Positions 13,999 through 31,010 of a stretch of 64,000 bases of DNA are shown piece by piece. The translations under genes and the position numbers were made by a program. The stretch comes from Lindgomyces ingoldianus (Eukaryota; Ascomycota; Dothideomycetes; Pleosporales; Lindgomycetaceae). The notes under the pieces were generated by a model. The model was not told where the DNA came from and searched no databases. It saw only the letters and a list, made by a program, of their open reading frames with translations. The stretch's first letter is position 1, and every line of letters begins with the position of its first letter. Location of the stretch: the NCBI RefSeq assembly GCF_010093535.1, contig NW_022985183.1:532956-596955 (forward strand), written 5' to 3'.

Positions 13999-16900
13999 AT
14001 GACAGCCACCGACGCCGACGACAACTTCGACTCCGAGCACGCAGCAGCCATGGCCGACCCCATAGACCCTCGTCTACAATACGCCTCGTCGCTTCCACCG
14101 CGAACCCTTTCGCAATCGTACCCAGTAGGCCCCGCGTTACAGAACAATGCCGGCACCCATCAACCATACTATCTCCCCGCCACCACGCACTCGCAGCCCC
14201 CACATCTCGCCCAAGCTCCCCCGCCGAGCAACCTCGATCCCGCTCTCGAGCAGACCTCTCCAGCTGGTCTCGAGGGCCCCTCTGACGAGCATGACGACTC
14301 CGATGTCGACCACGAGGGGTACGTGTCTCCATCGCAGCGGCATTCACCACTAGCCGAGGTCCGCGTCATGCTCAGTTGACTGACCTTTCATAGTACCCAT
14401 GACACTCCCGGCTCAGCCAAGTCTCCAGGAGACCTCAAGCGTGCAAGAGCCTGCGATTCCTGTCGAGGTCTGAAGGCAAGTCGCCTTTGTAGTTGCATTC
14501 ACCACTCACTGACATCATACAAGGTCCGCTGCGATCAACAACGACCAGACCAGCCATGTAAACGCTGCGAAAAAGCGAAACGGCCATGGTGGGTACTTCT
14601 AGAATCATCTCTCTATGCTCGCCTACTGAAAGTTGATCAGTGTAACTACCCCACCCACGAGGAAGAGGCAGAAGAAGGCCGATAGTCGTGTCGCAGAACT
14701 CGAGCGCAAGATTGATGCCTTGACTGCGACACTGCACGCACAGAAGGGGGGCCCCGCCACTGAGGGGTCCTCTTCTCTGGCTGGTATACAACAGTACGAT
14801 CCCGCTCCTGGCGGCTTTCCCCCGCACCCTCGCGACGAAGGCACTTATGGAGTGGGCATGATCAGACATGAGTGGTCACACCTCCCCAGCCGCTCCCAAG
14901 ACGCACCACCAGGCTATGGGCCTGCACAGACACACCGAGGGCCAGATCCGAAGCGAAGGAGACTCGGTGATGGAGGTGGACACCCTGTGAGTACATTACA
15001 TGGCGAAGACTTCGAATCCTCACGTATTCAGACTATCCCGGAGGATATGGATGCCATCCATCGCGACCTAGCTGAACACCCTGAGATGAAGCGTACAAAC
15101 AAGAAAGGGATACAGGCAGATCATTCCTACATCAATGCTCTAATCGATAGTCTCATGACATCCAATACTGCCGAGCGCATCTTTAATCGCTACGTACAGG
15201 AGATTTGCCCTCACTTTCCCGCAGTTCCGCTCTCCCCTGGAATTACGGCCCGCGAAGTTCGCGATAAGAAACCACTGCTCTTCTTAGCTATCCTGGCAGG
15301 TTCATCTCATGGAAGTGCTGAGCAGCTGGTACCTCAGGATGTACAGAGGGAGCTCACGAAGCTGTTGAAAGATCAATTTGCTGATATCATCTGGCGAAAT
15401 GGTGAGAAGTCGCTGGAGATTGTGCAGGCGTTGCAATTGGGCGTCTTATGGTAAGTCTGCCTGGCATGAGCGCAACACCTAACTTGATCAAAACTGATAT
15501 TACTCAGGTACCGCCCACCAATGCACTACGAGCAGCACAATTTCTACATGATGGTTAATTGTGCCGCGGTTATGGCCCTTGATCTCGGACTTGGAAGACC
15601 GGCAACCCCAAATGTCATGAAGCTTGCCGTTGGCCCTTTTCGTCGATGCCATCCTAACGCTAGTAGCATTGAAGCGCGACGAACATTCCTGGTATGCTAT
15701 TACCTCTGCATGAGCATCACAATGGTCCTCCGGCGCCCCATTCTCCTTCGTTGGACAAAATACATGGAGGAGAGTGTAAATATCCTCGAAACCTCTACCG
15801 AAGCACTTCCTTCGGATAAAATTCTGCTCCAGCACATCAAGATGGCCCATATTGGCGAAAATATCTCTGTGCAGTTCTGCATGGATGATCCCTCGGTTGA
15901 GGTGTCTATCTCTGAGCCTAAGGTCATCTATGCCTTGAAGATCTTTGAGAACGAACTTCAGCAACTGAGGGACCAAGATGCACAGATGGACCAGGTCGAC
16001 CGTAAAGTGCTCTTCGTGCTGCCTCACGATGATTATCACTAACTATACGCAGCTGCATTGCGACTCGCCGAGCATGTCACAAACCTTTACGTTCATGAAA
16101 TCGCACTTCACCACAACCAAAGCGTCGCCGACTTCCAACCACCCTTTCCTTCCGAGTCTTTTGCCTCTGGTGTCACCAAGAAAGATGCTATCGGGCCAGC
16201 CCATATCAGTGCTCTAGGCGAGTGTTTGACTGCGACCCATGGGATTCTAGATACTATTCTAAGCGTCCCTTTTGATATCCTCCTGACTCTTCCAGTCATT
16301 TTCTGTGAGTTCATGACAGCTTCTGGTCGAATTTGCTTCTCACAATGAACTATAGGTGTGCGCGCAATATATGCTATTGTGTGTTTAATGAAGATGTGGG
16401 TGTCCGTCACTTCGGCCGGCGAAGTTGGTACTATCATAAAGAAGGAGCACTTGGGAATTGAATCCTATACTGAAAAGTTGGTTAATATGTTCAACGCAAT
16501 CGTCTCTCGCGACGCACAGAGCCCTCACGGCAAGTTCTACTTCGTAGCCAAGCGGCTGCAAGAGCGGTTCGCGCAAATTAAAGAGGGCACTCAGAAGATC
16601 GACACCACGGAAATTCGAGACGAACAGCGCCGTTCCGAGAGCAAGCCTAGTAACAAGCGCCCTAGGCAGAGCTCAGCGAACCAAACACCCCTCCACCTCC
16701 TCTCGGAAGTCGCAATGGGCAGCAGTGCCTCCACTCCTTCAACCCAGTCTCAACCCGCAGCGATTCAACCACCACAGCAGTCGATGCCGCAGGGCTGGTA
16801 CAGCAATCCAGCTATGGGCCCACAGCAACCAGAGATGATGGCGATTCCGCCTGCTGGCTTCGACCCCAACTTCGACTTCACCCAGTTTGACTTGAGCATG

Positions 16901-17241
16901 GGTAGCGATGCTGATCTGTCTGCGCTTTTCATTCCGGACTCTATGCTGTGGAACTTTGGGCCTGATCTTGGTACGAGTAATTACAACCATGGGACTGCGT
17001 TCTAATTATTGCTTGTTGTATATTAACTTGTGGAATACATACTAAAAATTCTTTCTCCCTAGGTCTGTTAGGTGTCCGTGGCTTCTGGCGTCGAGATTTT
17101 ACGCATATAATGAGCAATTTCGGGCCGGAACAGCCCAAACTCAGTGAGTCTCGAAATCTAGCTCGCCCAAAGCTAGATTTCGGGGGTGATTGGGTGATGT
17201 TTGAGGAGTGGGAGTCTCTTATTAAGGCCGACCAGGCCTAG
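13999..17241 (+). CDS. Zn2Cys6 transcription factor, War1/WarA-like
   Basis: Nuclear regulator. Proposed exons: 13999-14318, 14394-14475, 14524-14588, 14641-15450, 15508-16001, 16053-16304, 16356-16970, 17063-17241 (938 residues). The zinc cluster is assembled from three exons: RARACDSCRGLK, then VRCDQQRPDQPCKRCEKAKRPC, then a basic linker RKRQKKADSR and a short coiled coil VAELERKIDALTATL. The intron 14476-14523 has a GC donor (AAG|GCAAGT), needed to keep C-X2-C-X6-C. The middle region resembles the regulatory domain of War1-type factors, which in yeast and Aspergillus control weak-acid resistance; that identity is from memory of the motif and is tentative. Without the last intron translation stops at 17005 (890 residues). 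With it, the frame stays open to 17241 and ends in GGDWVMFEEWESLIKADQA, which looks like genuine coding sequence. A 45 nt in-frame segment at about 14989-15033 could be a further intron. Confidence 0.85.
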
Positions 17242-19992: not shown

Positions 19993-20362
19993 TCAGCAGT
20001 TCTCATCATCGTTCTCAAGGCAAGGCGGCAAAACGATACCCACGCCGTCAGTACGCTTGCCCTTTGCTCCTCCTTCTTGGCTCCAGCATTCCTCGCCGTC
20101 CAAACAAGGAGGCAAGACAATTCCAGTACTATCAGTACGCTTTTCTTTAAACCCGCACGCTTCATCGTCTTCCAAGCAGAGAGAATGAAAGATGTCTACG
20201 CCATCATTCCGTTTTCCAAGGGCGACGACATCCGAGTTACCTTCATATCAGTGTTAGACTTTTGATGTAGAAGAGTGATTGAGAATTGAATGTAGGCATA
20301 CCCGGGAGGGGCGCTGCGAGAGCGATAGATGTCAAGAGAAGCATGATGAGTTTCTTGTACAT
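19993..20362 (-). CDS. secreted Kex2-processed repeat precursor peptide (candidate RiPP precursor)
   Basis: A 102-residue protein from two exons, 20362-20302 and 20240-19993. The intron 20301-20241 has GTATGC, a CTAAC branch and AAG. Residues 1-17 form a signal peptide (MYKKLIMLLLTSIALAA) with ALA|APLP as the likely cut. Three dibasic KR sites (30-31, 54-55, 82-83) delimit three repeats: NDGVDIFHSLCLEDDEAC, TDSTGIVLPPCLDGEECW and TDGVGIVLPPCLENDDENC. Each starts N/T-D, has a hydrophobic core, then Cys-Leu, an acidic run and a second Cys; the last repeat ends at the C-terminus. This design fits Kex2-processed precursors such as the ustiloxin, asperipin, phomopsin and victorin precursors, where a peptide is cut out and cyclised by UstY proteins. 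An UstY-family gene lies head to head with it. A TATA box (CTATATA, 20477-20471) sits about 110 bp upstream. It could instead be a small cysteine-rich effector or pheromone-like peptide. Confidence 0.85.
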
Positions 20363-21332
20363 GGTTCCGGAAGTGTTTGCGATGTCGTTGTAGTTCAAGC
20401 GAGGGAGTTTGAATGATTTGGTGACTTGAAGTAAATTGCAATGAACCGCAATCCGGGAAGAGGAGACCTTATATAGCCCAAGAGAAGGAGTTGGGGAGGC
20501 TTTACTTTGGGGTCTCAAGAATAGCTGACCCCTAAGCCTCGGTGGAAGTTCAGAATCTTGCCGCCTAGTTGGGATATCAGGCATTCATCCCCCTCAGTAG
20601 GAGACATTCGGTGATGGTTTCTTTGTACCATCAAGCAATATGTTTCGGAGTCCGTAGGAATGTGCACCAATGGAACATTTCCCAACAGGCAGCAATCTCC
20701 AGGAACAAGTGTTCCCCAAACACTTGGAATCAAATCGCAGGGTCGGACGTGCCGTTGAGATCGTCCTTCCTCTGTAGCGGCCGAAAGGTGAACGCCGTGT
20801 CCTTAACCGCGCCTCGCGTGATCCAGCTGAGAGCAGGGTATCCGTTCCACTAACTAATCACTGGATTGTGATCGACTCAAACACCTTTTTATAGAATATT
20901 CCATTTGCTCCCACGCAAACTCCCAGAGCCTGGGTTGTCGCAAATCTTGATAATTGGACAGATTGATTGCGACTAGATACACCGATATTCCCTCATATTA
21001 TCGAAGCGCGATTTCTCGGGAAGGTGCTGCAACATGCAATACACTGCATTCCGACCCCAAACACGCCAACAGTCCGAACGATATTGGTTTCTCAGTACTC
21101 CCTGTCTAGTTACAGCCAATGGGGATGTTTCAGTGTGGAGTTTGCGTTGCGGATGTGTCTTAGGAGGTGTGCAGGAAAGCTGAGTGGCACTCGGTGCCTA
21201 GAGAATCTTAGGAAATTCTAAGTTGGAGAAGGTGTCAAAGAAGATCCCACTTCTTCTACCTTCTAGCGAGCATATGAGCGAGCTCTTCGGCTCATTGCCA
21301 CTTTTCTTACCCACTCCCTCTCTATCCGTCCA
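20363..21332. promoter_or_regulatory. bidirectional promoter between precursor peptide and UstY gene
   Basis: A 970 bp region separates the two divergent starts. On the precursor side a TATA box (CTATATA, minus strand, 20477-20471) lies about 110 bp before the ATG. The perfect inverted repeat CGGAGTCCG at 20646-20654 has the CGG-N3-CCG form bound by many Zn2Cys6 dimers, so it is a candidate site for a pathway regulator. No cluster-specific regulator gene is present next to it. No coding frame in the region looks real. Confidence 0.5.
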
Positions 21333-22268
21333 ATGTTCTTCTCGAAAAACTATCGAGGGAGTGCACACACTCCTGCGCAATATTCCAATGTGGGTGATGA
21401 GCCACTTGACGACTGCGAAGATCAACGTTTGAGATGCTCAGTCTGTTCGAATCAAACTAATTGGGCAACGAGAGTTTGTTATCTACTTCTAATTTTCATC
21501 TTTGTGGGGGAGGCGGTGACTTTGTCTGCCTCACTGCTCGCCTCAAAATTTGGCCAAGGTGTACAGTCAATGAGTCGAGGAACATTTCCTTCGCTAGTCC
21601 CCTCGACTCTCCTCAAATATGAGTACCGCCCGGAGTGGTCAGATTTGGCTGATCCTTGGGCGCTTCCCCCCGGTCACTCTCTCGATGCATTATGGGATGA
21701 CTTGCTATATGGTTAGATTTCTCTGATCTCATTCAAACTTATGCTGATTACGACTGCATAGCGCAAAACATCCACATTCCGGAGCATGAGTTTGAAGCAC
21801 TTGAAGAGAACGTGACATATCCAGTCCAAACTCTTAATGGCGATTATGTGGGAGTGATTGGAATTTACCACCATTTACATTGCCTCGATGCCCTACGACG
21901 AGTTGTGCATTGGGACTATTACGGACCCAGGGCATCAGAAAAGGCTCTCGAAGAGGGGATATATTCCAAAGCTCACTCCGGCAAGTCCAATTTTCTATCT
22001 CTGTTGTGGACACCAGTGCTAATTACTGATTTCGCTCCTAGACCACTGCATCGAAGCATTGCGTCAAGCTCTCATGTGCAATCCAAATACTGGGTTCTAC
22101 TCTGCGACGTGGGTCTGGAGCGAAAGTGGCCCCAAAGTGGACTTGGGTCCGACTACCGGCATAATGCACAAATGTGTTGATTGGAAGAGTTTAGATGGAT
22201 GGGCAAGGGGGAGGGCTGTGAGGAGAGGCCAGGCGAGATACCGTCTTACCACTTTGCATGAGTCGTAG
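21333..22268 (+). CDS. UstYa-family (DUF3328) oxidase, candidate RiPP-cyclising enzyme
   Basis: A 274-residue membrane-anchored protein from exons 21333-21711, 21762-21980 and 22042-22268. Residues about 47-70 form one transmembrane helix after a short polar N-terminus. The two HXXHC motifs that define the UstY family are both present: HHLHC at about 163-167 and HSDHC at about 198-202, the second followed by IEALRQALMC. The second motif is only formed if the intron 21981-22041, which has a GC donor (TCCG|GCAAGT), is removed. Family members (UstYa/UstYb, AprY, PhomYa and others) take part in oxidative macrocyclisation of fungal ribosomal peptides, and some act on other metabolites. The length is normal for the family. 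Its divergent neighbour is a Kex2-type repeat precursor, which is the classic pairing. No tyrosinase or S41 peptidase gene is seen. Confidence 0.92.
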
Positions 22269-22662: not shown

Positions 22663-23660
22663 ATGGCCACACTTTCCATCTCTGAGGGCGAGATCCCGTT
22701 CGCTGCGCCGGGTACTGACAAGCTCACCAATACTTGGTACAAGACCATCGGAGACGTCACCAAGTCTCCACCTCTCATCCTCTGCCACGGCGGTCCAGGC
22801 GCCGGCCACGAGTGCCTTCTCTCTTTGACCGACCTCTACGAACAATATGGCATCCCACTCATTTTCTACGACCAAGTCGGCTGTGGCAAGTCCACCCACT
22901 TCAAGGAGAAGATGGGCGATGAGCTGTTCTGGAGCATCGAGCTGTACTGGGCCGAGCTCGACAACTTGATCGACAACTTCGGACTACGACAGTCAGGATA
23001 TCATCTCCTCGGCCAGAGCTGGGGCGGGATGCTGGTCGGGTCTTATGCTGCGAAGCGTCCTGTCGGTCTGAAGAAGCTGATCATCTCGAGTGGACCTGCT
23101 TCTGGAGCGCTGTACCAGGAGTCTGCGAATCTCTTGCTGAAAGAACTGCCTGAAGATGTCAGGAAGACGCTGGAGGATTGCGAGAGTCGCGGAGATCACG
23201 AGAGCGACAAGTACAAGGCGGCGAGCATGGAGTTCTTAAAGCGTCACGTATGCCGCTTGGACCCATTCCCAGACGATATTCTTAAGGCGTTTGGGCACTT
23301 GGAGCATGATAATACGAGTTATATGACTGTGTAAGTCTGCGCCTACCTCTCAAACTTCCCTCTACCTGGCGATTGTAGACAAAAACTACGGCTTACGCAT
23401 TTCCTAGCCAAGGACCTTCTGAATTCCAGATCACCGGCTGGCTCAAGCATTGGGATTCCTCGACTGATGCCTACCATATCGAATCCCCAACTCTGCTCAT
23501 CAATGGCAAGTATGATGAGATGCAGGACATCACCATTGAGCCCTGGTTCCGTCGCATCCCGAAAGTCAAGTGGATTACCCTTGACAATTCGAGCCACTTG
23601 AGCCACTATGAGGAGAGGGATAGATACATGAAGATCTGTGGAGATTTCCTGAAGTACTGA
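22663..23660 (+). CDS. proline iminopeptidase-like alpha/beta hydrolase (S33 family)
   Basis: A 306-residue enzyme from exons 22663-23330 and 23408-23660. It has the oxyanion-hole motif HGGPGAGHE (about 42-50), the nucleophile elbow GQSWGG (Ser at about 119), Asp at about 259 in NGKYDEM and the catalytic His at about 286 or 289 in SSHLSHYE. The segment GPSEFQITG after the intron is typical of proline iminopeptidases, which release N-terminal proline from peptides. It lacks a signal peptide and should be cytosolic. The ATG at 22663 has a purine at -3; the frame open upstream lacks family similarity. The gene is 400 bp downstream of and co-oriented with the UstY gene, so it may trim or degrade the peptide product, or be a housekeeping neighbour. 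Related hydrolases also occur in non-peptide clusters, so the substrate is open. Confidence 0.9.
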
Positions 23661-24002: not shown

Positions 24003-25190
24003 CTACGCAGTAATCGCCCTCCCTCTAGACCCCTGCCCTCCGTTTACATTACTTACATTTGACAAGGCATACTGCGTGGAAAAAGTTGTCGTATCCGACC
24101 ACATAAGTCCCGATCTCAAACTTTTCATAAACGGCCAAAAGTACGCGACACACACGGTTGAGATACTAAGGAGTTGGAGAATCTGCGTGCAGAGCAGGTA
24201 TGTCACCGATGCGTGGGTCCAGTTGTGGGTGAAGAGACGGCGGGTGTAGATCATTTGGAAAATTGTTGCTACGATGACCCTAGAAAGGCATTAGCGGATA
24301 TCGCGATTGGGGTATGGACCGGTATTGGAACGGGTGGGAAAGAAACGTACAAGATTCTCGATATGAAGAAAGATATCACAGTTAAGCGCGTTTTGATGGG
24401 CATTTGGAGAGGGTAGATTATCCAGACTGGGAGGCAGACTAGGAGGAGATCTGTCAGTGCGTTTGTGGCGCCCGAATATTCGAGAAATGCTTTCTATAGA
24501 TTCGTTAATGTACGGTGCTATTTGTCCACCCCCAGGTTGAAGAAAGAGCGCTCACCTCATTGATGCACTTGCTATGATCAGTATTCCATGGGAGTTTTGG
24601 CCCACATTGGAACACTGCTGTGAAAATTGATGATATTGCCCAGAGTATTATTAGACCACCGAGACTGTACGTCACTTTACGATGTCGCTCGTCCGGGGAA
24701 AGCGCAAGGAAGCTGGCGCAGAGAGAGGTCTTCGCAAATGCGAGAGAGGCCAAGAAGAGAATACTGCCCGCATATCTCACCTGCGCGAAAGTCAATTCCC
24801 ATCGATTACATTCAGCAATCATATTTCTTGCCTTTAATCCGTTGCGGAGCTCAGACCCAGAAACCAGATCTATGTCTTTACCAAAAGCGCCACTTCCGGG
24901 GACGAGAAAAGTCAGTGACTCCCCAAGTGCCAACAACTGCTCGGAATTAGTCTGCACGAATCCATTCACAGACTCAGCTAATAAAAAGCTCATACATAGG
25001 CCGAGATAACCAGAATATCATCCGCGCCAAACTCTCTACTCGCCTTCAGAAATAATCGCGTCAAGAAACGGAAACCGAGCATGAGCGTCATGATCGCTAA
25101 GCACAGCCATGTGGTAACTTGAACAAGAGGATTAAGATCTGAATCCGTAATTCTGATTCCTTCGGAAGCATCCGAAGTAGAAGCAGACAT
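24003..25190 (-). CDS. fungal-rhodopsin-domain (PTH11-like/SAT4 family) integral membrane protein
   Basis: Predicted protein of 319 residues. Exons: 25190-24996, 24951-24832, 24780-24556, 24493-24351, 24279-24003. It has the layout of the fungal rhodopsin domain (PF20684): TTWLCLAIMTLMLGFRFLTR with GADDILVISAY, then YAGSILFLASLAFAKTSL, LIILWAISSIFTAVFQCG, the KCIN...NALTDLLLVCLPVWI segment, RLTVISFFISRIL, and a last helix before QILQLLSI. These seven-helix proteins are abundant in filamentous fungi, and members occur in secondary-metabolite clusters; their function is mostly unknown, apart from PTH11-type surface sensing. The second intron (24831-24781, 51 nt) has a GC donor; it is divisible by three, so its retention would add 17 residues. 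The C-terminal tail is short. It is divergent from the permease gene and may belong to the same locus as the peptide genes or not. Confidence 0.85.
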
Positions 25191-26268
25191 AATGTTTTAA
25201 AGTTCTCGTCGGGTGGAGAATGAGCGATGCGAAAACGGCGCTGTCAATCGAAAGAAACGGCGATCAAGCCTTCAAGGTAGACCTGCACCAAAAAAAGTAC
25301 ATGGTGGATTGCGAGCCCTAACAACCTCATCGCATATATTAGGCCGCGACCTATTGGACACCATCTTCTCGTGCGATTAGAGTGCTGGTTCCATCTGGTG
25401 CAAGGCTGCGGTACACACAGGGCGAGCACATCACGATGTACCGAGGTGAGAATTATTATGCATCAACGGAGATCAAGCCACATCCTTGCTCCCTGCAGAT
25501 GGAGTATGATTCAAAGAGGAAGATATGGGAGTTAATTGTAGAGTGCACAATAATGTCTGGTAAAATAAATGGTTATATAGGGAGTTGTGAAGGTTACTAA
25601 GTCTTAATTGCGCACTGCATGTCTCTGATAGGTCCGAAATATGGTATGATACCATTGTAACACAGAAGATAGAGATCAATATCAATCGGAGCACGCTCTC
25701 CGAGGCTAGCGTGGTGTCTCGTTGCACAACTGATTAAGCTTTCCGGTGAGCAGCTGGAGAAGTTTACGCTTTGGAACTATCCAAACTCATCAATTCCTCC
25801 CTTCGACATCCGTATTGTCGGAAATGTGAAAACAGTTCTTGCATTTTGACTATGTACTACCTTCCGATTTCAGCTTCCCACTCCTTTTAGCACGACCTCA
25901 GAGCAAGCGTTTATAATGCTGTGTTGTAACTTGAACAAGGTAGAGTCGTGCATCCCCGTTATCCCATAACGTGGTTTAGCTTTTCTAAAATCGTCTTCCA
26001 GACTCGTCCCATCCTGTCGGATCTTGACCCCGAAGGTCCTGGTGATCGGTTCAACGAATCCTAACGTAGTGTGAGAGGATCTTCGGAGCTCACGCTGCTG
26101 GCCGTCGCTTGCCGTCAATCCGACGCTACTGGTGTGAAACTACATTTTGCTGGCCTCAGAGCGGCAATCACTCCTTCAATTTCTGATGTGGACGTTCTTC
26201 GGTCGAAGCGGTTGTAAATATTCAACACCAGAATACACACCTACCACAAGTTCAACATCTCCATCGCA
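25191..26268. other. divergent intergenic region between membrane-protein genes
   Basis: About 1.08 kb between the starts of the rhodopsin-like gene (-) and the permease (+). It should hold both promoters. The frame at 25870-26118 (-) opens with TTG and shows no family features, so I do not call it. Confidence 0.45.
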
Positions 26269-28080
26269 ATGGCTGACAAAGGCTTCGAACTGCACACCAC
26301 CTCCATGACCTCTGGCCTCGACCGAAACAACACTTCTAATCTCTCATCTCAAGAACACCCCATTACCTCAAGCGACGATGCCTATCTCGCTCGCCTCGGA
26401 AAACGAGCGCTCTTGCCACGCTCATTCGGCTTCATGTCCATATTAGGCTTCTCCTGCTCGTCTCTGATATCCTGGGAAGGCATCCTCGTGACCTCCGTCG
26501 GCGGCCTTCTTAACGGCGGTCCCGCTGGCGTCATATGGGGTTTTCTCGTCAATTGGCTCGGGATGCTCAGCACGTTCGCTGCGATCGCAGAATTGGCTAG
26601 TATGGCGCCGACGGCAGGTGGGCAGTACCATTGGGTCGCGATGATGGCGCCGAAATCGTGCAATGTGTTTCTGGCGTATTTGACAGGTGGGTTTCCCAAC
26701 CTTTTCTACTGATATATGAAGAGTTGCTAATCGTGATGGGTGTGTCTAGCATGGCTCACTGTCCTCGCCTGGCAGGTCTTCGCGACGTCCACTAGCTTTC
26801 TTCTTGGGACTCTCACACAAGGAATCGTTATCTTGGCGAATCCAACATATGTCCCGAAGACGTGGCACACAGTTCTGTTGATCTGGTGTATTATGCTGGT
26901 GGCTGTGGCTCTGAATTCCACGACTTCCCGTGTGCTAGTCAATTTCGAAGGCATCATTTTAATCGTGCACCTGGTAGGATTCTTCTGTGTGTTGATTCCG
27001 CTTGTGTATTTCGCGCCGCATAGCGATCCGTCGTTCGTGTTCACAACATTTTTGAACGAGGGGGGGTGGAATAGCCAAGCGATATCGTTCTTTGTGGGAT
27101 TGCCGACGACGGCTATGAGTCTTTTGGGTGCTGATAGCGCGGTACATGTTCGTCTTTCTGACTTATCAATCTTTAAAATCGATGACTATTCAAGCTGACG
27201 GCTTCAGATGTCCGAAGAGATTCAATGTGCGGCAACGGTAGTGCCTCAGGCGCTCACGTACACGATGCTCATCAACGGAACGCTTGCACTTGCAATGGCT
27301 ATCGCGATGATCTTCTGCATCGGCGACTTAGAAAAAGCTCTAGCTGCGCAGGAAACTTTATTCTACCCTTTCATTGAGATTTTTCGGTCCGCGGTAAAAT
27401 CCACAGCTGGAGCTTGTATAATGGCGTCCATTATCCTATTCATGGGCATTGCGAGCGGCGTCGGCGCATATGCATCTGCTTCTAGAATATTGTGGTCTTT
27501 CTCGCGGGATCGAGGGCTACCTGGCCACAAGTTCCTATTCCGGGTATGTCTCAACCTGCCTTCGTGATCTGTATGGGGGTCTTTGCTTACGCCCTATCAG
27601 CTCTCCAAGAACTCTCTCCCTGTTCCAGCTATTTGCGTAACTCTCCTCACAACTTGTCTCTTCTCTCTCATCGTCCTCGGCTCCTCAGTTGCATTCAACG
27701 CCCTTCTATCTCTCACTGTTGTCGCCCTCTTCAGCACCTACCTCCTAGTCTGCATTCTCCTTCTCTGGCGCCGCATCGACGGCTCGCTTCAGCCCGGCGA
27801 CTGCTCCATTTCCGACGCGGATCGCATGGTGTGGGGACCTTGGAGATTGCCGGAGCCGCTCGGCACTATCAATAATGTCTTCGCGTGCGGCTATCTGATT
27901 TTCATGCTTTTCTGGAGCTTTTGGCCTCCGCAAACGCCTACAACGGCTAAGAATGCGAATTTCAGTATTCTAATTTTTGGTGTGGTGGTGCTGTTTAGTG
28001 TGGTGTGGTATATGCTAAGGGCGAGGCGGTACTTTAAGGGGCCGCTGAGGGAGGTGGATCCTGCGCAGATTCCAAATTGA
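26269..28080 (+). CDS. amino acid/GABA/choline permease, APC superfamily
   Basis: A 543-residue plasma-membrane transporter. Exons: 26269-26686, 26750-27147, 27208-27543, 27601-28080. After a hydrophilic N-terminus of about 50 residues come about twelve hydrophobic helices. Family marks include RSFGFMSILGFSCSSLISWEG, the helix-3 segment ELASMAPTAGGQYHWVAMMAP, GADSAVHMSEEI after helix 6, FSRDRGLPGH, and the C-terminal GPWRLPEPLGTINN. These are typical of the fungal GABA/choline (Uga4/Hnm1-type) branch of the amino acid-polyamine-organocation family, which imports amines with protons. The substrate cannot be told from sequence. It is the right-most gene of the 20-28 kb block and could supply precursors or export product, but fungal RiPP exporters are usually MFS proteins, so membership in the pathway is uncertain. 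Confidence 0.93.
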
Positions 28081-28772
28081 TGTAATTCCAGCAGCTGAAG
28101 TAAGAACAAAAGCAAAATTCTTACGATTGCTGAAAGATTTCCTAGTCCGGACGAGGAATTGAGGTTAAATATCGTTGAAATGATATGATTAGGAGAGACA
28201 ATTTCAGGCGGTTGAGGAATAGCCACTATTAGAGCACGACAGTAGCAAGCGCCATTAGCAGAAAATACTTTCTAGATAAAGAATCGAGTCAATAATTGCC
28301 CGGCCAGTGAATGAGGTCGTCTCAAACGGCAAGAACTTCATCCTTCTCTAAGTCAATTCCAGAACCTTCATTTCTCATGTGGGCAACAGCTTCTCCGCCA
28401 CCCTCGAATTTTTTATCATGAAGGAGCCCTACCGACTACTAGATTCTTCTATTGCATCGGGTAAGCAGTGGTGGGGTGAAAATGCGTGTTGTATTATGTG
28501 TGTCCATCAGCGTTTCTAACAGGAAGTAGTACAATTAATACTTTTGCTCTACCTACAATCACGTGAGGCAAACAAACGTAACTACATTTTTAACTGTTAC
28601 AATTTAATTAATAAGGCTTAAAAGTAAGCAGTATATAATTAAGGTAGACTATTTTAAAGTTGCAGTCTCTAACGCGCGTAAGGGCTAGAGGAACGTGTTT
28701 GTGCTACTATTTACGTGTTAGTGTAGCCTTAGAGCTTGCCCTATACTACAACAACCTTTTAGATAACCTTAT
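28081..28772. other. AT-rich region right of the permease
   Basis: About 690 bp. The left part holds the 3' flank of the permease. From about 28540 the sequence becomes TA-rich and poor in CpG (for example 28590-28660), as in RIP-treated repeats, and leads into the repeat beside the assembly gap. No coding sequence is seen. Confidence 0.45.
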
Positions 28773-28823
28773 TGTCGCAACCGCTGATCAGGGAGCAATG
28801 AGGAGCAAGTCTATTGACTATGA
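28773..28823. repeat. 51 bp direct repeat, left copy, abutting the assembly gap
   Basis: The 51 bases ending at the first N are identical to 29742-29792. They begin TGTCGCAACCGCTGATCAGG and end CTATTGACTATGA. The left copy is cut off exactly by the gap, so the true repeat is longer on this side. Confidence 0.9.
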
Positions 28824-29578
28824 NNNNNNNNNNNNNNNNNNNNNNNNNNNNNNNNNNNNNNNNNNNNNNNNNNNNNNNNNNNNNNNNNNNNNNNNNNNNN
28901 NNNNNNNNNNNNNNNNNNNNNNNNNNNNNNNNNNNNNNNNNNNNNNNNNNNNNNNNNNNNNNNNNNNNNNNNNNNNNNNNNNNNNNNNNNNNNNNNNNNN
29001 NNNNNNNNNNNNNNNNNNNNNNNNNNNNNNNNNNNNNNNNNNNNNNNNNNNNNNNNNNNNNNNNNNNNNNNNNNNNNNNNNNNNNNNNNNNNNNNNNNNN
29101 NNNNNNNNNNNNNNNNNNNNNNNNNNNNNNNNNNNNNNNNNNNNNNNNNNNNNNNNNNNNNNNNNNNNNNNNNNNNNNNNNNNNNNNNNNNNNNNNNNNN
29201 NNNNNNNNNNNNNNNNNNNNNNNNNNNNNNNNNNNNNNNNNNNNNNNNNNNNNNNNNNNNNNNNNNNNNNNNNNNNNNNNNNNNNNNNNNNNNNNNNNNN
29301 NNNNNNNNNNNNNNNNNNNNNNNNNNNNNNNNNNNNNNNNNNNNNNNNNNNNNNNNNNNNNNNNNNNNNNNNNNNNNNNNNNNNNNNNNNNNNNNNNNNN
29401 NNNNNNNNNNNNNNNNNNNNNNNNNNNNNNNNNNNNNNNNNNNNNNNNNNNNNNNNNNNNNNNNNNNNNNNNNNNNNNNNNNNNNNNNNNNNNNNNNNNN
29501 NNNNNNNNNNNNNNNNNNNNNNNNNNNNNNNNNNNNNNNNNNNNNNNNNNNNNNNNNNNNNNNNNNNNNNNNNNNNNN
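28824..29578. other. assembly gap (755 N)
   Basis: Unknown bases. The gap lies inside or beside a repeat, as shown by the identical 51 bp on both sides, so its real length may differ from 755. Frames that appear to run through it are artefacts. Confidence 0.99.
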
Positions 29579-29741
29579 GGGATCGCGGGTGGATGGTGGG
29601 AACGTGTGGCATCAGTCGCTGGTTGATCCATAGCTTCGGTGGAGAGAGAGAGACAATAGGAGCAGATGATGAGGAGCAGGGAATAGACAAGTGCTTTGAT
29701 CAACGCAACGCAGAGGAATTTGCACAAACCGGGCCCATAAC

Positions 29742-29792
29742 TGTCGCAACCGCTGATCAGGGAGCAATGAGGAGCAAGTCTATTGACTATGA
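29742..29792. repeat. 51 bp direct repeat, right copy
   Basis: Exact second copy of 28773-28823 in the same orientation. It is followed by AGGCTCATAGGGAGCCTGCC. The flanking DNA at 29579-29900 is GC-balanced, unlike the TA-rich DNA to the left and right, and may be part of a young repeat or LTR. Confidence 0.9.
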
Positions 29793-30319
29793 GAGGCTCA
29801 TAGGGAGCCTGCCTATGTAGTGGGAGCTCCGGCGCCAAGTGTCTCAGGCTGCTCGTCCGAAACACAGGTGCGACACCAGGACCATGTGCTCTCTTACGCG
29901 ACACTTATTATAGCAAAAGATAACAGTTCCTTGTATAGGGAACCTCTAAATTAGTAGCTCTAGGTTAGTTAGCGCAACTATCCTGTACTCTTTAAGATAG
30001 CACTTAATTTCCTATGTATACCCTTTATAAGCTGCGACTGCAAGAGCGACTGCAAGAGAGCCTTTAGCAGGGGGAAAAGAACAGTTACTTGTAACTATAA
30101 TTATCTCTTAGGCTTTATAATTAAAGCTTTACAACTCTAGAAGAACTAGCTATGTTATAAAGTTGTTTTTAGCAAATTAAATAACCTTATGTGCTATATT
30201 AAGAGTAAGGGGGACCCTGCTACTCTAAAAGCTTTAATAGTTATGTTGTAACTTTTAGTAAAAAGTTAAGAAGTATAAGCAGCTTTAATTAAACTGTAAC
30301 TTAATTATATTAACCCCTG
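29793..30319. other. repeat flank and TA-rich island
   Basis: To about 29900 the sequence is mixed, then from about 29920 it is very TA-rich (TAACTATAATTATC-like words) with few CpG. This fits RIP-mutated repeat DNA. No gene is visible. Confidence 0.5.
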
Positions 30320-31010
30320 CTGTTAGGTGAAGCAAACAGAAGTATATGATAAGTGAGACGTAACTTGTCTAGAAAGCCTGAGTCGAATCGTACTACTTCC
30401 TGATGGAAACGCTGGTGTCCATCTCGAGTATCTAAGCCCTATGTATAACGTATCTGACAAGCGATACAAGCAAGTTGACAATACAGGCGAGCTGAGAGGT
30501 CTCACCATACATTATATCTTTGATCAAAGTTTTTGAACTACAAAGTATAATATATTCAGCAACTTCCTTCTTAAAACCTGATTCTTGACCAACTTTGCTG
30601 ATTCTCTCCAGAAATGGTAGTGGTCCGGGCCAGGCAATAGTCTAATGTACAGGGAATATAGCGTTCGGCTCGAGAAATCGGATCTATTATATACTACTTA
30701 TTATATATTCAAGGTCTGATAGCGTTTTTTTAATCCTGTTTTCAAATTTATAGGCCATGTGCAAGGCCGTAATACCTACATGTTGCAATTTATCAACATC
30801 GATTCGGCGACAAGAGAGGTAACGATTTATTATATTATTGGTTAGTAATATCATCAGGGTTCTATACTGATGGAAATACTGATCATGAACCTCAATAAGC
30901 CAGCGAAGAAATACTTCGCGTATACATTCGCGAAGATTAATTTGTAACTCTATGTATTTTGGGACAGAGGATAGTTTTATCCAGATTTTGTTAGTACTAA
31001 TAACCAAAAA
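30320..31010 (-). pseudogene. B-type cyclin relic with in-frame stops
   Basis: One minus-strand frame keeps a long stretch of cyclin N-terminal domain: PKYIELQINLRECIREVF, LRWLIEVHDQYFHQYRTL, NNIINRYLSCRRIDVDKLQH and VGITALHMAYKFENRIKKTL. After two stops (TAA TAG) the same frame continues IRFLEPN, then after a TAG comes WPGPLPFLERISKVGQE, which is the WPGP(L/M)xFLRRxSK motif between the two cyclin folds. Position by position this matches mitotic cyclins (DWLVEVH, DRFLS, KLQLVGVTA). The C-terminal fold is only vaguely traceable below 30540, with frame changes. The stops and TA-rich bases suggest RIP after duplication. Mitotic cyclins drive the cell-cycle kinase Cdk1; this copy cannot make a normal one. 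Confidence 0.8.

Follow-up and report, generated by a model that had tools for sequence, protein, structure and literature searches.

Lindgomyces ingoldianus is a freshwater, pleosporalean fungus. In the window analysed here, a stretch of 64,000 nucleotides at G000:C22:532956-596955 of its genome assembly, a short gene for a protein with KR-delimited repeats lies head to head with a gene of the UstYa/DUF3328 family, which we call UstY. The question that this locus raises is whether the two genes act together to make a modified ribosomal peptide, or whether the precursor and UstY are neighbours with separate functions. We consider it probable, at roughly 0.6, that they form a small UstYa-associated RiPP locus, and that the locus is a new example of a known fungal peptide class. 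The coordinates of the features discussed below are collected in Table 1.

Table 1. Features of the precursor/UstY locus, of two comparable loci in the same genome and of neighbouring genes in the window
Feature	Position	Strand	Basis or remark
Precursor exon 1, signal peptide region MYKKLIMLLLTSIALAAPLPG	20302..20362	-	Intron phase 1; equals public protein
Precursor intron, 61 nt, GT-AG, branch-like CTAAC	20241..20301	-	Same splice implied by public protein
Precursor exon 2, with the stop codon and three repeat units set off by KR	19993..20240	-	Translation, repeat analysis
Predicted peptide 1, NDGVDIFHSLCLEDDEACGFKE, then KR	20143..20208	-	Positions by hand from codon frame
Predicted peptide 2, TDSTGIVLPPCLDGEECWSQEGGAKG, then KR	20059..20136	-	Positions by hand from codon frame
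Predicted peptide 3, TDGVGIVLPPCLENDDENC, at C-terminus	19996..20052	-	Positions by hand from codon frame
Divergent intergenic region, 970 bp between the two start codons	20363..21332	.	Presumed shared promoter
UstYa/DUF3328 gene (UstY), 274 aa	21333..22268	+	PF11807 matches; aligned with 19 homologues
First HXXHC motif, HHLHC, residues 163-167	21869..21883	+	Position by hand; at most 1 of 20 sequences differs
Second HXXHC motif, HSDHC, residues 198-202, interrupted by intron 2	21974..22049	+	Position by hand; homologue alignment
Proline-iminopeptidase-family hydrolase (TIGR01250), one intron near 23330-23408, donor approximate	22663..23660	+	Profile match; pairing elsewhere
Possible Zn2Cys6/Fungal_trans regulator, locus membership uncertain	14380..17005	+	Both matches below curated cut-off
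Fungal-rhodopsin-domain membrane protein, locus membership uncertain	24003..25196	-	42.3 and 26.0 bits on two ORFs, cut-off 27
Amino-acid permease, locus membership uncertain	26218..28077	+	Three ORFs above cut-off
L012 two-gene locus, between WD40-repeat and NOB1 genes	L012:4514-7196 (G000:C40:584300-594200)		Modelled
L023 locus: O-methyltransferase, three UstYa matches, precursor	L023:267-7710 (G000:C47:387300-397200)		Modelled

The precursor gene has the same splicing in the public record

The precursor is encoded on the minus strand (20362-19993), and its 102 aa product is of the secreted type by inspection and contains three KR sites. Exon 1 (20362-20302) specifies MYKKLIMLLLTSIALAAPLPG, the final codon of which is finished by exon 2. 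The candidate signal peptide, likewise judged by inspection, consists of KK followed by LIMLLLTSIALA and then ALAAP. The intron follows the pattern GTATGC...CTAAC...AAG, and the product of exon 2 opens with NSDVVALGKR, continuing with NDGVDIFHSLCLEDDEACGFKE-KR, TDSTGIVLPPCLDGEECWSQEGGAKG-KR and finally TDGVGIVLPPCLENDDENC.

An earlier note on this DNA, made from the letters alone, had proposed a gene with this extent, this intron and three repeats, and a protein search bears out the proposal: the precursor is identical end to end to BDR25DRAFT_304637 of L. ingoldianus. Since the match covers the full length, the public annotation must have picked the same splice. The same result overturns the suggestion that automatic annotation could easily miss so short a split gene, as the precursor is already public as an annotated protein to which no function is assigned; it is UstY, not the precursor, whose public model is faulty.

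The search of the public protein collection examined three candidates and returned one match, the precursor itself, so that the pairing of this precursor with UstY is known from one species. No family in Pfam or NCBIfam matched the precursor at E values up to 0.1. Two matches to the precursor within its own genome (L010, E 0.135; L011, E 0.352) were weak and were taken as chance.

Three related units, each with a cysteine pair

The three units follow one pattern, [N/T]-D-x-x-[D/G]-I-[F/V]-x-x-x-C-L-(acidic stretch)-C, and each holds two Cys residues as a conserved pair. A residue count found no Tyr in units 1, 2 or 3; two Phe and one His occur in unit 1 and one Trp in unit 2, and unit 3 is without any aromatic residue.

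The repeats are far above chance. The segments that follow two of the KR sites share 10 of 14 residues, a score equalled by none of 200,000 shuffles of the exon 2 product (best 7) and reached by none of 200,000 shuffles in which the KR positions were fixed (best 8). Across 1.98 Mb of control sequence generated by a third-order Markov model, four matches scored at least 6, one at least 7 and none at least 8. When the units were compared in pairs, no shuffle among 2,000 was as good for unit 1 against unit 3 or for unit 2 against unit 3; the pair of units 1 and 2 was equalled by 145 of 2,000 shuffles and is not significant by itself. Units 2 and 3 are identical at 10 of their first 13 residues, seven of these ten being specified by different codons, which argues against a fresh duplication of DNA. 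Between these two units conservation has acted on the peptide and not on the DNA.

Under the criterion for Kex2-processed repeat proteins, or KEPs (a secreted protein with at least three repeats of at least 8 residues between Kex2 sites), the precursor offers three units, 22, 26 and 19 residues long, the third of which is bounded by the C-terminus and not by KR. It resembles published KEPs (Le Marquer 2019, PMC6339444; Umemura 2020, PMC7329392) in being of the secreted type with units set off by KR, but differs from them in that its units are only partly alike, the third stands at the C-terminus and a single search of the protein collection yielded no homologue. All three units also exceed the minimum of 10 residues in the dikaritin repeat criterion taken from the work on Venturia, which accepts perfect or imperfect repeats between kexin sites (PMC9632046).

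The UstY gene carries both HXXHC motifs

UstY is divided into three exons (21333-21711, 21762-21980 and 22042-22268), and two of its exon fragments match PF11807 (UstYa) with 35.3 and 60.2 bits against a cut-off of 25. The gene thus belongs to the family to which the earlier note had assigned it on the strength of both HXXHC motifs, at the distance of 970 bp from the precursor that was given there. Intron 2 (21981-22041) is a GC-AG intron that interrupts the second motif. The listed GT donors yielded no open model in combination with intron 1 at 21712-21761, whereas the GC-AG intron does. The second motif rests on this intron, which is backed by the alignment of the 274 aa model with 19 homologues: H163, H166, C167, H198, H201 and C202 are identical in at least 19 of the 20 aligned sequences. 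The public model, which was left out of the alignment, is 170 aa long, begins after a hydrophobic stretch at about residues 48-70, and has neither the membrane helix nor the part that carries the second HXXHC motif. Because that model is without the second copper motif, surveys that demand both motifs would discard UstY.

Among its homologues, UstY is closest to CC78DRAFT_611502 from Lojkania enalia, with 49% identity at 98% coverage; this homologue scores 124.3 bits on PF11807. No solved structure matched this homologue at E values up to 1, and its AlphaFold2 model (mean pLDDT 53.6) is too low in confidence for a fold search; used for helix placement only, the model sets each HXXHC motif in a helix. 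For function, UstY can be compared with CctR, a copper-dependent hydroxylase and membrane enzyme of the UstYa/DUF3328 family that binds two copper ions per monomer and loses activity when its motifs are mutated (PMC12435403). Like UstY, CctR has the arrangement HxxHC(x)nHxxHC and a single predicted membrane helix that precedes a helical domain, and by its motifs UstY would probably share the copper chemistry. The two differ in substrate, which for CctR is a cyclic peptide of nonribosomal origin (PMC12435403) and for UstY is presumed to be ribosomal.

Two more precursor/UstYa pairs elsewhere in the genome

Across the 68.4 Mb assembly, PF11807 gave 31 exon-level matches, which were grouped by eye into about 25 genes. 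Twenty UstYa-centred regions of roughly 10 kb each, taking in all 31 matches, were scanned for related segments after KR or RR. KR-repeat precursors were found in three of these regions (the window locus, L012 and L023) and in none of the five control regions, a small set of 39.4 kb. The other 17 UstYa regions were without a KR-repeat array in their roughly 10 kb span, and a UstYa gene by itself therefore does not imply a precursor. The remainder of the window contained no array that scored in the KR/RR scan.

L012 has a modelled precursor of 131 aa with five near-identical, Tyr-rich units, divergent from a single UstYa match. The modelled 123 aa precursor of L023 comprises three units of about 32 residues each, which are near-identical and contain Tyr; the opposite strand of the L023 array also scored in the repeat scan. 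All three precursors are modelled as a signal-peptide exon, a phase-1 intron (47-61 nt) and a repeat exon; the intron ends of L012 and L023 were set in our models, and these two have no public record for comparison. With L012 and L023 the window locus has in common this exon architecture, the KR repeats and the UstYa neighbours. However, the repeats of L012 and L023 are near-identical and have Tyr, whereas the window units are divergent, have Cys pairs and are without Tyr. Six comparisons were made between window units and L012 or L023 units, five of which were unremarkable (156 to 1,262 of 2,000 shuffles as good). The comparison of unit 1 with an L023 unit, for which 8 of 2,000 shuffles were as good, was not relied on among ten comparisons. 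The existence of the two further pairs, with their common gene architecture, makes the RiPP reading of the window locus stronger, and supports the view that precursor/UstYa pairing is a kind of locus in L. ingoldianus.

A hydrolase gene that accompanies UstY in some other fungi

Downstream of UstY, at a distance of 394 bp, starts a hydrolase gene whose product scores 220.5 bits on TIGR01250 (cut-off 167.65), and all 10 of the solved relatives found are named proline iminopeptidase. In its own genome, at E values up to 1e-10, the hydrolase has beyond its two exons only one match, covering 36 residues. Its pairing with UstY, like the motifs of UstY, can be read at the level of sequence. In Madurella fahalii the homologues of UstY and the hydrolase carry consecutive tags (MFIFM68171_09538 and 09539), and in Lojkania enalia, Podospora appendiculata and Annulohypoxylon maeteangense they lie on contigs of the same length; the Lojkania hydrolase is 78% identical to that of the window. 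The comparison set 19 UstY homologues against the best 120 of 491 hydrolase matches, and among the 11 UstY rows (10 species) whose species also stood in the hydrolase list, four had a same-length contig and seven did not. For each protein cluster the tables name a single contig, the longest, and of the four contigs that agree in length two measure about 5 Mb; such agreement is therefore indirect evidence, and the consecutive tags are stronger.

The hydrolase may be a third member of the locus. No signal peptide is visible in it by eye, and it would consequently not meet the peptides in the Golgi. In the literature searched, no paper was found on DUF3328 together with proline iminopeptidase. 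The UstY/hydrolase pairing provides a new handle for searches.

Relationship to the dikaritins

The earlier note had described the pairing as dikaritin-type, with ustiloxin, phomopsin, asperipin-2a and victorin as examples, and this description stands in part. What looks by inspection like a signal peptide, Kex2-delimited repeats and an adjacent UstYa with two HXXHC motifs are found at the window locus as in those four systems, and the two further pairs in the genome agree with the general type. The comparison with the named dikaritins, however, overreaches: at the window locus the core has no Tyr, a Cys pair is present and the three units are imperfect. Moreover, no tyrosinase, methyltransferase or S41 peptidase was found among the 34 window ORFs scanned, which are a subset of the ORFs of the window and include several that are exons of one gene. 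An older definition of dikaritins, quoted in PMC12048977, comprised five genes, including those for a tyrosinase and a methyltransferase; the same source treats DUF3328/UstYa as the class-defining enzyme.

The absence of Tyr has a direct chemical consequence: it excludes the ether rings that this residue forms in ustiloxin, phomopsin and asperipin-2a. Most characterised rings involve Tyr (PMC9233826, PMC7329392), which is nevertheless common and not defining for dikaritins, since victorin does not need one; in the account of ring chemistry for ustiloxin, phomopsin, asperipin and victorin in PMC9233826, the victorin ring lies between Phe and Leu. In the precursor, Phe is present in unit 1 only. 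According to PMC7329392, 65.6% of repeat sequences in DUF3328-linked precursors have Tyr; about one third are without it, and the lack of Tyr is thus not new in itself. The main text of that paper does not mention cysteine or Lindgomyces, and a literature search for DUF3328 or UstY with cysteine gave no report of a Cys-type UstYa peptide among the matches listed, which is weak evidence of absence. Five reported dikaritins were counted in 2022 (PMC10512285).

It is tempting to go further, and to regard the Tyr-free, Cys-pair cores and their matched UstYa as a RiPP subclass of its own, in which a three-gene unit makes a Cys-derived or aliphatic cross-link in IVLPPCL. We think this unlikely. There is a modest chance that the locus is a real chemical variant. 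With paired Cys and no Tyr in its cores and a single UstY, so compact a locus would allow a test of whether UstYa enzymes also act on other side chains.

A proposed pathway and its alternatives

The locus is likely to represent an uncharacterised UstYa-associated RiPP, of two genes or perhaps three. We infer that it is expressed, possibly from the 970 bp region acting as a presumed shared promoter for the precursor and UstY. The signal peptide would send the precursor into the secretory route, where Kex2 would cut after the three KR pairs and Kex1 would trim the basic ends, releasing peptides of the three unit lengths. The calculated monoisotopic masses of peptides 1 to 3 are 2455.0307, 2648.1734 and 2001.8659 in linear form and 2453.0151, 2646.1577 and 1999.8503 with a disulfide. 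The divergent UstY, predicted to be a lumenal, membrane-anchored enzyme with the double HXXHC motif, would then oxidise the core. Because the cores have no Tyr, the likely targets are aliphatic side chains and prolines around IVLPPCL, or Cys. The Cys pair of each unit could close a disulfide loop, and the proline-iminopeptidase-like hydrolase might trim or recycle the peptides.

The alternative that survives best is that the precursor gives rise to plain, unmodified Kex2-released peptides with a role in signalling or defence and one disulfide per unit, while UstY and the hydrolase form a separate unit with another substrate. Two Cys and no Tyr per unit would suit a disulfide peptide, the UstY/hydrolase pair is seen in distant fungi while the precursor search found only the precursor, and DUF3328 proteins also serve nonribosomal and polyketide pathways (PMC12048977, a lichen survey). 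Yet an exact-word protein search easily overlooks short, fast-changing precursors, and the position of the precursor is difficult to attribute to accident. Given about 25 UstYa genes and the 5.25 repeat precursors that an ascomycete strain has on average (PMC7329392), the probability that any repeat precursor at all falls within 1 kb of a UstYa gene is roughly 0.006, and the two further precursor/UstYa pairs agree with the window locus in their modelled exon architecture. A UstYa neighbour is common among repeat precursors: of 7,878 examined, 22% have DUF3328 genes nearby, usually immediately adjacent (PMC7329392). We regard separate functions for the two genes as possible, if rather improbable.

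A second alternative is that the locus is a decayed, non-functional relic of a dikaritin locus, as might be suggested by the presence of only three, imperfect units and by the lack of a relative in the precursor search. Against such decay, the reading frame is open, the intron retains GT, a branch-like site and AG, the HXXHC motifs are intact, and residues have been retained despite synonymous codon changes, and we consider a relic very unlikely. Least credible of all is an alpha-type mating pheromone precursor: a secreted precursor with Kex2 repeats and two Cys in each unit is reminiscent of the two-Cys alpha pheromones of 13 Dothideomycetes (PMC6339444), and the Pleosporales-type pheromone pattern has no exact match in the genome (one for the backwards control), but KR is followed by ND, TD and TD and not by the XA or XP dipeptides that STE13 removes (PMC6339444), and precursors annotated as mating factors or pheromones almost never have a DUF3328 neighbour, with three exceptions (PMC7329392).

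Other sequence beyond the locus

The RiPP reading places the precursor, UstY and perhaps the hydrolase in one locus; further out, a possible regulator, a rhodopsin-domain protein and a permease are encoded (Table 1). Positions 28001-31000 of the window, which adjoin the permease gene, are AT-rich (GC 0.278 at 28001-30000) and contain a masked N run.
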